Assembly (NCBI RefSeq): GCF_004123675.1
Contig: NZ_CP035417.1
Span: 1,851,501 to 1,915,500, forward strand
Reading direction: 5' to 3'
Source of the DNA: Leisingera sp. NJS204
GTDB taxonomy: Bacteria > Pseudomonadota > Alphaproteobacteria > Rhodobacterales > Rhodobacteraceae
Length of the DNA: 64,000 nucleotides
Each line of letters begins with the position of its first letter. Position 1 is the first letter of the stretch. Shown one piece after another: positions 20,909 through 44,526 of this stretch. The translations under genes were made by a program, and so were the position numbers. The notes under the pieces were generated by a model. That model had not been told where the DNA came from. It made no database searches and was given only the letters and a program-made list of their open reading frames with translations.

Positions 20909-21148
20909 ATGGCTTCGGACAGACAGAATCTTCAGGATGCCTTCCTGAATCACGTTCGCAAAACCAAGGTTCCGGTTACAATCTTTCTGATCAACGGGGT
21001 CAAGCTGCAGGGTGTGATCACCTGGTTCGACAATTTCTGCGTGCTGCTGCGCCGCGACGGACAGTCGCAGCTGGTCTACAAACACGCGATTTCGACCATC
21101 ATGCCGGCCCAGCCGATCAGTCTCTATGAGGGTGAAGACTCCAATTGA
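20909..21148 (+). CDS. hfq: RNA chaperone Hfq
   Basis: Hexameric Sm-like protein that pairs small RNAs with mRNAs. The 79 residues carry Sm1 ([21 protein letters not shown]) and Sm2 ([13 protein letters not shown], with the YKHA uridine-pocket motif) and a short acidic C-terminal tail, as is typical for alphaproteobacteria. The leader is AT-rich before the ATG, with GGCGAGA as ribosome site. Its stop overlaps the hflX start by 4 nt. Confidence 0.97.
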
Positions 21149-38290: not shown

Positions 38291-38420
38291 TGGGGGGGCC
38301 TCCCTGACAAACTGATTATGGTTGTTGGACCCTCATGCTAGCATTTTTTCTGCCGTCGCGTAACGTCGGCCCCGGGCCATCAGCCCAAGGCCGCTGTGTT
38401 AAGCGGTTTTTTGCCAGCGC

Positions 38421-39077
38421 CTAGGCCGGTGCGAACAGCCGGGGCAGCACCAGATGGCCGATTCCAACCGCAATCAGCTGCATCACAATGAACATCGGGA
38501 TATGCCCCGGATAGATGCCCGCAAAGGTGTCGCTGAAGCCGCGTGCGATGGTCACTGCCGGGTTGGCAAAGCTGGTCGAAGAGGTGAACCAGTAGGCTCC
38601 GGTGATGTAGATTCCAACCAGAGCAGGCACTGTATCAGGACGCGAGCGCAGCCCGCCGAAGATCACGAACAACAGGCCGAACGTGGCCAGGATTTCGGAA
38701 AACCACTGCGCTGTTCCTGTTCGGTGCATAGTCTCAGAGCTTTGCAAAACTGCAAGATCAAACATTGCATGGCAAGCCCAGACCCCCAGGATCCCGCCTC
38801 CGATCTGCACCAGAACGTAGGGTGTCACCGCACGCCATTCATGTTCGCCGCGCAGGGCGAAGGCAAGGGTTACGGCCGGGTTGAAATGGGCGCCTGAAAT
38901 CGGACCCAGGGTAGTGATGATCGCATAAAGCATGCAGCCGGTGGCAACAGCATTGGCCAGCAGGGCCAGGGCCACGTTTCCTCCTGCCAGGTTTTCAGCC
39001 ATGATCCCGGAGCCAACAACACCGACCAGCAGCATGGATGTGCCCAGCCCTTCGGCCAGAAGTTTCTGCCCGGTCAT
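38421..39077 (-). CDS. aqpS: MIP-family aquaporin/aquaglyceroporin in arsenic operon (AqpS-like)
   Basis: A 218-residue channel with six membrane helices and both NPA boxes: GAHFNPAVTLAFA and TSFANPAVTIARG. In Sinorhizobium meliloti an arsR-aqpS-arsC operon uses the AqpS channel to let arsenite made by ArsC flow out; the same setting is seen here, and no ArsB or ACR3 pump is present. The ATG overlaps the arsC stop by 4 nt. The assignment to arsenite passage rests on context; by sequence alone it could be called an aquaporin. Confidence 0.88.
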   Translation of the reverse strand: MTGQKLLAEGLGTSMLLVGVVGSGIMAENLAGGNVALALLANAVATGCMLYAIITTLGPISGAHFNPAVTLAFALRGEHEWRAVTPYVLVQIGGGILGVWACHAMFDLAVLQSSETMHRTGTAQWFSEILATFGLLFVIFGGLRSRPDTVPALVGIYITGAYWFTSSTSFANPAVTIARGFSDTFAGIYPGHIPMFIVMQLIAVGIGHLVLPRLFAPA

Positions 39078-40479: not shown

Positions 40480-42303
40480 TCAGTCTGATTGATACCACCA
40501 GACATCTGGCATGAATCCGGTCCGGTCGCCGTAGATCGGCAGGTATTCCGGAAACCGCATTTCCTTGACATGGGCGATCCGCCCCGCATCGAACCGCCAG
40601 AATGGAATGACATAGCGCCCTGCGGTCAAAACCCGGTCCAGCGCCCGCACGGCGGCGGTGAAATCCTCAGGGTCCTTGGCTGTCAGCATGGCATCAATCA
40701 TCGCTTCGGCAGCGGGGCTGTCCATGCCCATCAGGTTGCGGCTGCCGGGCTGGCTGACGCCGTCGCTGCCCCAGTAATAGCGCTGTTCGTTGCCGGGGCT
40801 TAGCGACAACTCTCGGCGGTAACGGGTGAGATCGAAGTCATAGGCGCTTTGGCGTTCGACATACTGGGCATTATCGACGGTTTCCGCCGTTAGGGATATG
40901 CCCAACCGCTCCAGTGCGCGGGCATAGATTTCAGTGATGGTCTTCATCTCGCCGTCGCCTTGGCGGATCAGAACGGTGAACTCCAATGGCGTACCATCGT
41001 TCTTGCGCAGCACGCCGTCTGTGACGTTCCATCCTGCATCGGCCAGCAGTTTCATCGCCTTGCGCAGATTTCTGCGGTTGCGCTTGCTGCCATCGCCCTG
41101 CGGCAGCGCGTAGCCTTCCAGCGTCCCGGGCAACAGCGTGTCTGCAAACGGGGCCAGCAGTGTGCGAACCTCTCCAGCAGCTGCGCCGGGCAGCGTGCCT
41201 AGTTCGGATCCCGAGAAATAAGAGGTGATCCGCGGCTGCACGCCGCCAGTCACGGTGCCGTTGATGTATTCAAAATTGAACGCTAGCAGCAGCGCCTCGC
41301 GAACGCGCCAGTCATCCAGCGGAGCCCGGCGGCTGTTCATCACCAGCCCGGTCATGCCGGAGGGGCGCTGATGCGGGATTTCGCTTTTGACCACATCGCC
41401 GCGGGTCACCGCCGGGAAGTTATAGACACTGTCCCATTTGTCAGCATTGAATTCCCGCACCGCGCTCAGTTCGCCTGCCTTGAAGGCTTCGAACAAAACT
41501 GTTGCATCGCCAAAGAAATCCAGGCGCAGTTCGTCAAAGTTCCCGGTACCGCGCCGAAAGGGCAAGTCTTTGCCCCAATAGTCCGGGTTTCTGGACAGGG
41601 TAACGAAACGGCCGGGTTCGAAATTCCGGACCACATATGCGCCGGTGCCAATCGGGGCGCCGGTCAGGTCATCGGCACCGAATTCCTTGTCCTGCCATTG
41701 CGCCTTTTTTAGGATCGGGCGCAGTCCGGCGATCAGTGCCAGCTCGCGGTCTTCGGTATTGAAGGTCAGGCGCAGGCTGCGCGGTCCGGTCTGTTCAATC
41801 CGCGCCACCTTGGTCCAGAAACCGCGATAGCGCGGGTGGCCTTGGGTGCCCAATGTCTTATACGACCAGATCACATCTTCGACGGTCACCGGGCTGCCAT
41901 CGGAGAATCGCGCCGCCTCCCTAAGGGTGAATTCGACCCAGGAGCGGTCCTCGGGCACCTCAATCGATTCGGCCAAAAGACCGTAAAGCGTGAACGGCTC
42001 ATCCCAGGAGCGGCCCATCAGGCTCTCGTATCCCCAGAACCTCAGCTGCCACGGCGCGGTCCCCTTAAGGGTGAACGGGTTCAGTGAGTCAAAGCCGCCG
42101 GTATTGCCGAAAACCACCTTGCCGCCTTTGGGCGCATCTGGGTTGGCATAGGGTAAAGACACAAAATCGGGTGGCAGCGCAGGCGCCCCATACATAGCTA
42201 TGCCATGACCTGATTCTGCCTGCGCAAAATTCGCAGCAAAAGCCAAGGTGATTCCGGTCAGTGCCGCACCGGGATTCAGGAAATTTTCTTTTCGCAGTTT
42301 CAC
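40480..42303 (-). CDS. Extracellular solute-binding protein family 5, YejA-like
   Basis: Periplasmic peptide-type binding protein of an ABC importer, 607 residues, GTG start. Signal peptide about 1-29 (cleavage after FAQA). The family 5 signatures are present (GGKVVFGNTGGFDSLNPF, GLLAESIEVPEDRSWVEFTLR, ARFSDGSPVTVEDVIWSY). The length and the ending (YLPIYGDRTGFMPDVWWYQ) match YejA, the receptor for oligopeptides and microcin C-type compounds. Its permease and ATPase genes (yejBEF) are not adjacent downstream, where the ars operon begins instead. Confidence 0.9.
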   Translation of the reverse strand: MKLRKENFLNPGAALTGITLAFAANFAQAESGHGIAMYGAPALPPDFVSLPYANPDAPKGGKVVFGNTGGFDSLNPFTLKGTAPWQLRFWGYESLMGRSWDEPFTLYGLLAESIEVPEDRSWVEFTLREAARFSDGSPVTVEDVIWSYKTLGTQGHPRYRGFWTKVARIEQTGPRSLRLTFNTEDRELALIAGLRPILKKAQWQDKEFGADDLTGAPIGTGAYVVRNFEPGRFVTLSRNPDYWGKDLPFRRGTGNFDELRLDFFGDATVLFEAFKAGELSAVREFNADKWDSVYNFPAVTRGDVVKSEIPHQRPSGMTGLVMNSRRAPLDDWRVREALLLAFNFEYINGTVTGGVQPRITSYFSGSELGTLPGAAAGEVRTLLAPFADTLLPGTLEGYALPQGDGSKRNRRNLRKAMKLLADAGWNVTDGVLRKNDGTPLEFTVLIRQGDGEMKTITEIYARALERLGISLTAETVDNAQYVERQSAYDFDLTRYRRELSLSPGNEQRYYWGSDGVSQPGSRNLMGMDSPAAEAMIDAMLTAKDPEDFTAAVRALDRVLTAGRYVIPFWRFDAGRIAHVKEMRFPEYLPIYGDRTGFMPDVWWYQSD

Positions 42304-42377
42304 AACAATCCCGCTCTGCCCTTATTTTCTTGCTTCTGCACGCTACGTGCGCTTTTTCGTCTTTTCAAACTTTTAGC

Positions 42378-42406
42378 TTGGACGAAAGCCGGAAATTGCT
42401 TATAAA
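42378..42406 (+). promoter_or_regulatory. Strong sigma70-type promoter of the candidate sRNA
   Basis: TTGGAC (42378-42383), a 17-nt spacer and TATAAA (42401-42406). This is the best housekeeping-type promoter match I found in the window. Expected start of transcription is about 42412-42414. No open reading frame of note begins before the terminator at 42460. Confidence 0.7.
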
Positions 42407-42412
42407 GGGATC

Positions 42413-42488
42413 ACTGCTCGATAGGTTTCTTGCCTGTATGAAACCTGCCTCAATAACTAACGCCCGCCTTGTGCGGGCGTTTTTTTTT
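42413..42488 (+). ncRNA. Candidate small RNA with two hairpins
   Basis: A transcript of about 75 nt is predicted from the promoter at 42378-42406. It would contain a 7-bp hairpin (AGGTTTC 42423-42429, GAAACCT 42440-42446, loop TTGCCTGTAT), a single-stranded CAATAACTA stretch, and a terminator hairpin with a long U-tail, the layout of Hfq-dependent small RNAs. An hfq gene is in this window. No known alphaproteobacterial RNA family is recognised. A short leader peptide cannot be ruled out (ATG at 42438 gives only a few codons). Confidence 0.6.
42460..42488 (+). terminator. Strong intrinsic terminator
   Basis: ACGCCCGC (42460-42467) pairs perfectly with GCGGGCGT (42473-42480) over a CTTGT loop, followed by nine T. 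No protein gene on this strand ends within 4 kb upstream, so it must serve a short local transcript. Confidence 0.92.
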
Positions 42489-42622
42489 GGGACGTTTCCA
42501 CACTGCCTCTGACGGGAAATGCCCCTGCGTTGCAAGGGGCGATCCGCTGTCTTACGCGTTTCTTTTGCAGCTGCAGCATGGCACAGTGCCGTCAGTTTCA
42601 TTCAGCCGAGGGAAAGTTGCCG

Positions 42623-43396
42623 ATGTCCTTGCAAGGGAAGACCGCCGTTATCACTGGATCAAATTCAGGTATTGGCCTGGGGGTTGCGCGCGAACTGGCG
42701 CGGGCCGGGGCCGATGTGGTTCTGAATTCATTCACCGACCGGGATGAAGATCACGCGCTGGCAGCAGAGCTCGCCCGTGAATTCAGCGTCAAGGCCCAGT
42801 ACATTCAGGCTGATATGTCCAAAGGGCCGGATTGCCGGATGCTGATTGAGCAGGCCGGCGCCTGCGATATTCTGGTGAACAATGCAGGCATTCAGCATGT
42901 GGCGCCGATCGATGCGTTCCCGCAGGACAAATGGGACGCGATCATCGCGATCAACATGAATTCAAACTTTCATACCATGGCCGCCGCCTTGCCCGGAATG
43001 CGCGCGGCGGGCTGGGGGAGGATCGTCAATATTGCCTCGGCCCACGGGCTGACGGCCTCGCCGTTTAAGGCAGCTTATGTGGCGGCCAAGCACGGGGTTG
43101 TCGGGATGACCAAGACGGTGGCACTGGAAACCGCAGAGGAGCCGATCACCTGCAATGCGATCTGCCCGGGCTATGTGCTGACACCGCTGGTTGAGGCGCA
43201 GATCCCGGACACCATGGAGAAATACAACATGGGCCGCGAAGAGGTGATCAAGAAGGTGATGCTGGAGCGCCAGCCAAGCCGCGCGTTTGCCACTGTGGAA
43301 CAACTGGGCGGCACCACGGTGTTCCTGTGTTCGGACGCAGCAGCGCAGATCACCGGCACCACGCTGAGTGTCGATGGCGGCTGGACGGCGCTGTAG
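42623..43396 (+). CDS. bdhA: 3-hydroxybutyrate dehydrogenase (SDR family)
   Basis: NAD-dependent oxidation of D-3-hydroxybutyrate to acetoacetate, in PHB or ketone-body use. 257 residues from the ATG at 42623 (GAGGGAAA upstream; the open frame reaches 42530 but the extra part is not family-like). SDR features: TGSNSGIGLGVA (9-20), NNAG, catalytic Ser in NIASAHGL and YVAAKHG with Tyr and Lys, then CPGYVLTPLVEAQ typical of BdhA. An intercistronic set of hairpins lies between it and the patatin gene. Confidence 0.93.
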   Translation: MSLQGKTAVITGSNSGIGLGVARELARAGADVVLNSFTDRDEDHALAAELAREFSVKAQYIQADMSKGPDCRMLIEQAGACDILVNNAGIQHVAPIDAFPQDKWDAIIAINMNSNFHTMAAALPGMRAAGWGRIVNIASAHGLTASPFKAAYVAAKHGVVGMTKTVALETAEEPITCNAICPGYVLTPLVEAQIPDTMEKYNMGREEVIKKVMLERQPSRAFATVEQLGGTTVFLCSDAAAQITGTTLSVDGGWTAL

Positions 43397-43500: not shown

Positions 43501-44526
43501 GTGAAACGCATTAATCTGGCCCTGCAGGGCGGCGGCGCGCATGGGGCGTTTACCTGGGGAGTGCTGGACCGGCTGCTGGAGGATGAAGGGGTTGAGGTGG
43601 CTGGGATCACCGGCACCTCGGCCGGCGCATTGAACGGCGCGGCCTTCAAGTCCGGCATGGTTCAGGGCGGGCGGACCGGTGCCAAGGCGGCGCTGGACAA
43701 GTTGTGGGCGCAGATGGGGGCGGTGGGCGACATGCGCTTTGCCCATTGGCTGACCCGGTTTGATGCGGTGGCCTGGACCGGTGCATTGGAGGCTGCCATG
43801 CCATTCTCGCCGCTGGAAACCATGAGTCAGATGATCTCTCCCTATCACTACGGCCCTTTTTACAAGAACCCGCTGCAGGAGGTTGTCGATCAGTTCTGTT
43901 TCGATGATGTCTGCGCCGGGGCCGGGCCGGAGCTGTTTGTCTGCGCGACCTGTGTGCGCACGGGCAAGATCCGGGTCTTTGAGGGCACCGGGATCAGCAC
44001 CGATGCAATTCTTGCCTCGGCCTGCCTGCCGGACATGTTCCAGGCGGTGGAAATCGAGGATCCGGAGACCGGCCGGATGGAGGCCTATTGGGATGGCGGT
44101 TTCACCGGCAATCCGGCGCTGTTTCCGTTATTCCGAGCAGAGTTGCCGGGGGATGTGGTGATTGTGAACATCAATCCGCTGGAGCGCGAGGAGGTTCCGA
44201 AGACGCCGCAGCAGATCCGCAACCGGGTGAATGAGATCAGCTTTAACTCGTCCTTGCTGCGGGAGCTGCGCGCCATCAATTTTGTGCAGCGGCTGCTGGA
44301 GGATGGCACGCTTGAGGCCGGGCGGATGAAGCAGGTTCGGGTGCACATGATTGCAGATGATGATCTGATGACGCAGCTGTCAGTCACCACCAAGCTGTTT
44401 CCGGTGCCGCAGATCCTGGCGCGGCTGAAACAGGCAGGGCGGGACGCGGCGGAGAACTTCCTGGCACAGGACGGTGAAAATCTCGGCCTGCGCTCTTCAA
44501 CGGATCTGCCTGCGATGTTCAGCTAG
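43501..44526 (+). CDS. Patatin-like phospholipase
   Basis: Ser-Asp dyad lipid hydrolase, 341 residues from a GTG start (AGGTG 8 nt upstream). The oxyanion loop is LQGGGAHGAFTWGVL (8-22), the nucleophile Ser40 is in GTSAGAL, and the catalytic Asp is in YWDGGFTGNP. No signal peptide, so it acts in the cytoplasm. A patatin gene beside bdhA recurs in alphaproteobacteria, so a role around storage polyester or membrane lipids is plausible but unproven. Confidence 0.9.
   Translation: MKRINLALQGGGAHGAFTWGVLDRLLEDEGVEVAGITGTSAGALNGAAFKSGMVQGGRTGAKAALDKLWAQMGAVGDMRFAHWLTRFDAVAWTGALEAAMPFSPLETMSQMISPYHYGPFYKNPLQEVVDQFCFDDVCAGAGPELFVCATCVRTGKIRVFEGTGISTDAILASACLPDMFQAVEIEDPETGRMEAYWDGGFTGNPALFPLFRAELPGDVVIVNINPLEREEVPKTPQQIRNRVNEISFNSSLLRELRAINFVQRLLEDGTLEAGRMKQVRVHMIADDDLMTQLSVTTKLFPVPQILARLKQAGRDAAENFLAQDGENLGLRSSTDLPAMFS

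Follow-up and report, generated by a model that had tools for sequence, protein, structure and literature searches.

Does the short intergenic segment at positions 42378-42488 of the 64,000-nucleotide stretch of Leisingera sp. NJS204 DNA analysed here (the window) encode a stand-alone small RNA (sRNA), and, if it does, with what does that RNA pair? The first-pass annotation had proposed such a gene, with a promoter, a hairpin, and a terminator, and had named no target for it. On the forward strand, a −35 element TTGGAC (42378-42383) is separated by a 17-nt spacer from a −10 element TATAAA (42401-42406). With the start inferred at 7 nt past the −10 element and the 3′ end placed inside the T run, the predicted sRNA spans about 72-76 nt (42413-42488), and its ends have not been mapped experimentally. 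It comprises a 5′ tail, CTGCTCG (42414-42420), unpaired in the predicted fold; hairpin 1 (42422-42447), with the stem 42422-42429/42440-42447 and the loop TTGCCTGTAT (42430-42439); and a Rho-independent terminator (42459-42488), with a stem of nine perfect pairs (42459-42467/42473-42481), a 5-nt loop, and nine T at 42480-42488. The positions annotated for the promoter, hairpin, terminator, and T run all held, and the terminator stem, given as 8 bp, held in part. The fold of 42378-42500 had a z of −2.5, and 6 of 200 shuffles folded equally well.

No same-strand open reading frame of at least 100 codons ended within 200 nt upstream of the locus, bearing out the annotated absence of a nearby protein gene end on this strand. 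The nearest upstream gene (40480-42303) is divergent, on the minus strand, and encodes a solute-binding protein of family 5 (Pfam SBP_bac_5; previously labelled yejA-like), and a gene for a 3-hydroxybutyrate dehydrogenase of the SDR type (42623-43396, plus strand; TIGR01963 above cut-off) starts about 135 nt downstream of the sRNA on the same strand; neither is part of the RNA. Farther along the plus strand, 43501-44523 encodes a patatin-like phospholipase (Pfam Patatin) with a weak likeness, far below cut-off, to antiphage phospholipase models. A looser scan of the window gave five U-tailed terminators, and the claim that the terminator of the sRNA is the only one not tied to a protein gene was nearly right, there being one other candidate at 38,407 (plus strand). 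That terminator (8 bp, T6) also lacks a same-strand frame ending within 200 nt, and it sits next to the point where a minus-strand gene (38421-39077), aquaporin-like by eye, ends.

A sigma-70 consensus scan did not call the TTGGAC/TATAAA promoter, TTGGAC matching the consensus at three of six positions; the case for a real promoter rests on the conservation of its elements across loci. The TTG and TAT described for RpoHI/II motifs (PMC10673084) are present and also fit the housekeeping sigma factor. No family of Rfam 15 reached its gathering score anywhere in the window, and the sub-threshold scores within 42000-42800 in a permissive scan were 26.3 against 55 for RyhB and 25.8 against 52 for Hrs13. 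SorY of Rhodobacter sphaeroides (RF02651), likewise a small RNA with its own promoter from the same bacterial family, scored 14.6 bits at the locus against a gathering score of 111.

A 123-nt query matched 37 of 61 genomes, including all those of the same family (37/37) and none of the 24 from other families of the class. The 78-nt RNA used as a query found a match in all 390 sampled genomes of the order, representing 139 of 139 genera, and, in one genus sampled further, in 124 of 125 genomes (113/113 among the better assemblies). An exact 38-nt core occurred in at least 118 contig stretches; 80 of these carry either names that we take to be Rhodobacterales, Neomegalonema having been looked up, or unclassified labels. 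Viral contigs held no exact match to a 30-nt core.

Of 70 loci that BLAST retrieved, 69 shared the same first 40 nt of the RNA and the remaining one differed by one loop base; the 5′ tail CTGCTCG was identical in all 70. These loci included 60 that were distinct over 135 nt and 21 from the window's genus, and those taken from the 390-genome search were its best matches. A larger set of 184 loci, 174 of them distinct over 180 nt, was used for the flanks; it is uninformative on hairpin invariance, because its selection pattern requires the hairpin and many of its members came from the exact-core scan. Among the 174 distinct loci, CTTGG lay at a fitting distance from a TAT-type −10 element in at least 143, and the −10 element was TATAAA in 103 and another TAT-type sequence in most others, with none recognised in seven. 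An uninterrupted terminator stem followed by a T run was present in 170 of the 174, in the form of 76 distinct hairpins, and each of the eight pairs counted showed changes on both of its sides; third from the loop, for example, stood C-G in 109, G-C in 41, A-T in 13, and T-A in seven. The stems were found by requiring complementarity, and the counts were not corrected for relatedness. The conservation of the 5′ half is therefore one of sequence and that of the terminator one of structure, with that caveat on relatedness. The compensatory terminator changes and the promoter conservation that had been suggested as a check on related genomes were thus both found, and the proposal of a stand-alone sRNA gene is supported by its order-wide presence, its own conserved promoter, its covarying terminator, and its near-invariant body.

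These data bear on one alternative, that the locus is a fortuitous array of promoter, hairpin, and terminator, or a tiny coding gene, without RNA function. An ATG is present in the hairpin region, which would suit a tiny gene. However, its frame is not kept, comprising seven codons before a stop in R. sphaeroides and running past the terminator in the window; the terminator covaries; and chance would not account for 40 nt near-identical in 69 of 70 loci and an RNA matched in 390 of 390 genomes. This alternative is all but ruled out.

Conservation extends upstream of the promoter. In the profile of the 174 distinct loci, a block at 42361-42377 (plus strand; TTTTCAAACTTTTAGC type, TTTTCAAACTTTTAG) is conserved to roughly the same degree as the promoter, and CAAACTTTTA, just 5′ of the −35 element, was exact in 124. 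This block could be an activator site or an UP element, a tentative assignment for which no binder has been identified; by eye, it does not resemble the CenR (TGA-N8-TGA) or NtrX (GCA-N9-TGC) motifs.

The neighbourhood is also widely retained. Within 1.5 kb, the solute-binding protein gene lay on the opposite strand in 159 of 167 loci and the dehydrogenase gene on the same strand in 140 of 167; among the 133 loci with at least 1.5 kb of sequence on both flanks, 129 and 116, respectively, kept these genes within that distance. The RNA might accordingly be imagined as a cis-acting leader or attenuator of the 3-hydroxybutyrate dehydrogenase gene, standing to it as the sRNA UpsM of R. sphaeroides stands to mraZ, a reading favoured by the shared strand, the distance of about 135 nt, and the retention of the neighbour in 116 of 133 loci. 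Against it, no dehydrogenase match (tblastn, E 1e-10) lay within 1.5 kb in 17 of the 133, though a distant or diverged copy is not excluded; the stretch past the T run is poorly conserved in an anchored profile; and it is to a leader far away that the invariant body is complementary, as described below. We therefore regard a cis-acting role as very unlikely and retain the reading of an independent sRNA gene.

That distant leader belongs to the dcw (mraZ) cluster. UpsM is released from the dcw leader of R. sphaeroides by termination; transcription starts 268 nt upstream of mraZ, and UpsM, at 206 nt, is the most abundant sRNA of that bacterium and makes up about 60% of its Hfq-bound sRNAs (PMC5089854). 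The long dcw leader has been called exclusive to Rhodobacteraceae (PMC5089854). In R. sphaeroides, StsR (formerly RSs0827), reported as a 72-nt sRNA that depends on RpoHI/RpoHII, binds both UpsM and the dcw leader (PMC8307010), and this binding lets RNase E cut both; its discovery paper is Grutzner 2021, and the facts given here come from later papers. The dcw leader was compared with the present sRNA because identity with StsR was under test.

The dcw leader of the window's genome holds GCAGGTTTCATACAGGC, the perfect complement of the 17-nt sRNA segment GCCTGTATGAAACCTGC (42432-42448), which consists of hairpin loop and 3′ arm; this site 1 lies at G000:C1:2696915-2696930 (minus strand). We assembled 119 dcw leaders, from 80 of 108 candidate places (28 being left out) plus 39 other loci. 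The 11-nt core site TTCATACAGGC was exact in 108 of the 119 and present with at most one mismatch in 112, while its reverse complement occurred in none and 200 shuffled words gave a mean of 0.075 and a maximum of nine. Longer words were also frequent, the 16-mer CAGGTTTCATACAGGC being exact in 78 leaders and the 17-mer in 35. The exact core was absent from 11 leaders, seven of which keep a drifted site with TACAGGC; the other four (G169, G247, G196, and G028) have no recognisable site 1, a wrong or incomplete leader not being excluded. No compensatory change between the partners was seen, the sRNA staying constant where some leaders have drifted.

A second leader site, CGAGCAG (site 2), is complementary to the 5′ tail of the sRNA. 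It followed site 1 by 10-90 nt in 104 of 108 leaders, at 36-39 nt in 96 of these. Shuffled 7-mers gave a mean of 1.5, but the overlapping word GCGAGCA reached 102 of 108, and 15 leader 7-mers in the surrounding, wholly conserved block are present in at least 90% of leaders. The chance that one of these near-invariant 7-mers fits some 7-mer of the 40-nt sRNA stretch is 15 × 34/16384, or roughly 3%. Site 2 is supporting evidence only, weaker than site 1. The complement of the loop seed together with site 2 at a fitting spacing was found in 111 of 119 leaders, against 0 and 0 for two control patterns. The conserved leader block just 3′ of site 1, with the consensus AGAGATCCGGCGCGCGaGCGAGCAGACATCCCCCCAGGTGGCGCGCGCAG in 104 leaders aligned on CGAGCAG, is in itself more constant than a plain hairpin would require.

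In eight whole genomes, the 16-mer with zero to two mismatches occurred at 25 places, compared with five for a reversed-word control, and every genome contributed its sRNA gene and its dcw leader, 16 of the 25 in all. The nine remaining places showed no mutual similarity, and weaker targets lay outside the scope of this search. Prediction of duplexes against whole leaders gave no clear advantage over shuffled ones in several genomes: 40 and 24 of 100 shuffles were equally good in R. sphaeroides and 1 of 100 in the window's genome. Such prediction favours long weak pairings and is a poor test, and it was replaced by the word and whole-genome tests. The sRNA gene, its conservation, and its complementarity to the dcw leader are shown by these results; that the sRNA actually pairs with the dcw leader and UpsM is inferred, without expression or binding data, and we consider it very likely.

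The R. sphaeroides genome was assigned through a reaction-centre H protein that was 100% identical, and the position of mraZ in it agrees with the published NtrX peak at mraZ (PMC7240162). In it, RpoE/ChrR as encoded in the window's genome had no close match, although the species is described as having rpoE-chrR; missing sequence may be the reason. The homolog of the sRNA lies on chromosome 1 at 1,443,996-1,444,072 (minus strand), among the same kinds of neighbours, with a start predicted at or near ACTGCTCG. It would lie near RSs1368 if RSs numbers follow the gene order of chromosome 1, a tentative inference from few positions (PMC6238624); neither RSs1386 nor RSs1368 was found in the literature searched, and the homolog is accordingly given no name here. 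Site 1 in R. sphaeroides has one mismatch to the sRNA and corresponds to UpsM +54 to +70. As the 130-nt RNase E fragment starts near +77, the site is just 5′ of the cut.

Both RNAs being short, intergenic, and complementary to UpsM and the dcw leader, identity of the sRNA with StsR was the reading first favoured, for the similar length (72 nt for StsR) and the shared partner (PMC8307010). However, the published StsR probe GGACAGTGAAGGTAGAACGG (PMC11354728, section 3.3) has its complement elsewhere in the R. sphaeroides genome, near 858,073, in a stretch followed by its own terminator, and that complement is absent from the 3 kb around the sRNA homolog. The presumed StsR word in the leader, GGGACAGTGAA, itself an inference from an 11-nt match, occurred in six of 119 leaders compared with 108 of 119 for the core site, and it starts near UpsM +13 instead of +54. 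StsR thus differs in locus and sequence, and orthology with it is as good as excluded, barring a misprint in the probe.

Considering these results, we propose the following scenario as the best explanation of the locus, one that is likely overall, though expression, pairing in vivo, the direction and sign of the effect, and any role of Hfq are inferred. An sRNA of about 75 nt that acts in trans and is universal among the sampled Rhodobacterales would be made from its own promoter and ended by its intrinsic terminator, with the dcw leader, and so UpsM, in R. sphaeroides and its relatives as the principal partner. UpsM is a by-product of leader termination, whereas the sRNA described here has its own promoter and gene. 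An 8-nt loop segment, GCCUGUAU, free in the sRNA, would first kiss AUACAGGC in the leader, and pairing would then invade the sRNA stem to reach up to 17 bp, an invasion made possible by a copy of the sRNA 5′ arm (AGGUUUC) carried by the leader. The 5′ tail CUGCUCG would clamp the second site, CGAGCAG, about 37 nt downstream, and the two contacts are in matching antiparallel order without crossing. Opening the 8-nt seed is calculated to cost 0.2 kcal/mol in the sRNA and 3.7 (own leader) or 1.3 (R. sphaeroides) in the leader. The predicted 17-nt hybrid reaches −30.8 kcal/mol in the window's genome and −26.5 in R. sphaeroides, or −13.9 and −11.6, respectively, net of opening costs.

The likeliest outcome would be altered RNase E cleavage of UpsM and the leader, along with altered read-through into dcw, since site 1 is just 5′ of the RNase E cut. 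In folds with site 1 blocked, the RNase E region was not freed (unpaired 0.31 to 0.32 and 0.40 to 0.40), which argues against a simple switch. For 74 of 108 leaders, the segment past the site had a better upstream pairing than any of 20 shuffles, which makes it probable that many leaders enclose the site in a loop; as a conjecture, a rigid helix may strain that loop. Lowering of dcw and UpsM by the sRNA, their protection by it, and its sponging by UpsM are all compatible with the sequence.

The last of these possibilities amounts to a rival in which the pairing is real, but UpsM titrates the sRNA, the main targets of which are other, imperfectly matched mRNAs. The abundance of UpsM and its share of Hfq-bound sRNAs (PMC5089854) favour such a sponge, and many targets could likewise account for a body that is invariant throughout. 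On the other side, eight genomes held no other recurrent site within two mismatches of the 16-mer, imperfect targets being outside the scope, and the leader already provides matches to those parts of the sRNA that are both invariant and unpaired. A sponge remains possible, and regulation of the dcw leader is the reading we prefer. A bolder version of the preferred reading is that the sRNA is an order-wide core riboregulator, its invariant half built for the dcw leader and UpsM and setting dcw output in all Rhodobacterales, with StsR as a later, lineage-restricted addition; we hold this to be as likely to be right as wrong.

Further claims of the first-pass annotation concerned the seed and Hfq. 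Complementarity of loop and 3′ arm to the dcw leader supports the 10-nt loop as a seed. For the CAATAACTA linker, proposed as another possible seed, support is lacking: no partner was found for it, and its columns in the conservation profile are mostly 0.7-0.9 compared with at least 0.9 in the hairpin. An hfq gene is indeed present (20909-21148), but at a distance of about 21 kb its description as a neighbour carries no weight. The layout of an Hfq substrate, in the sense of an intergenic RNA with its own promoter and a U-tailed terminator, is borne out by sequence and conservation alone, Hfq dependence itself remaining a presumption without binding data.

Words from the sRNA sequence appeared in no paper of the literature searched, supplements being outside the search, and titles and abstract openings of that literature disclosed no other sRNA partner of UpsM or dcw. 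Intergenic 60 and 134 of Paracoccus denitrificans (PMC5107571) gave no coordinate match to the sRNA, and intergenic 134, which also matches Actinobacteria, was set aside as an unlikely match. A Ruegeria pomeroyi catalogue (PMC4809877) is said to place its coordinates in a supplement, which lies outside the search. Detection of this RNA in earlier work as an uncharacterised transcript is therefore possible, and it is nearly certain that the order-wide sRNA gene is real and unnamed in the literature searched. EcpR1 of Sinorhizobium meliloti (PMC4414408) is likewise an alphaproteobacterial trans-acting sRNA tied to the cell cycle, but belongs to another order.

A near-invariant sRNA and its fit to the dcw leader suggest that cell division is under an RNA control not recognised before. 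For the dcw cluster, regulation by RNA is already known from R. sphaeroides, and the sRNA described here would be the second such regulator. If the proposed scenario is true, the case would come down to a single short contact open to disruption and repair in R. sphaeroides or a laboratory roseobacter, the retention of the long dcw leader would be explained in part, and RNA control of cell division would be the rule across a major order of marine and soil bacteria.
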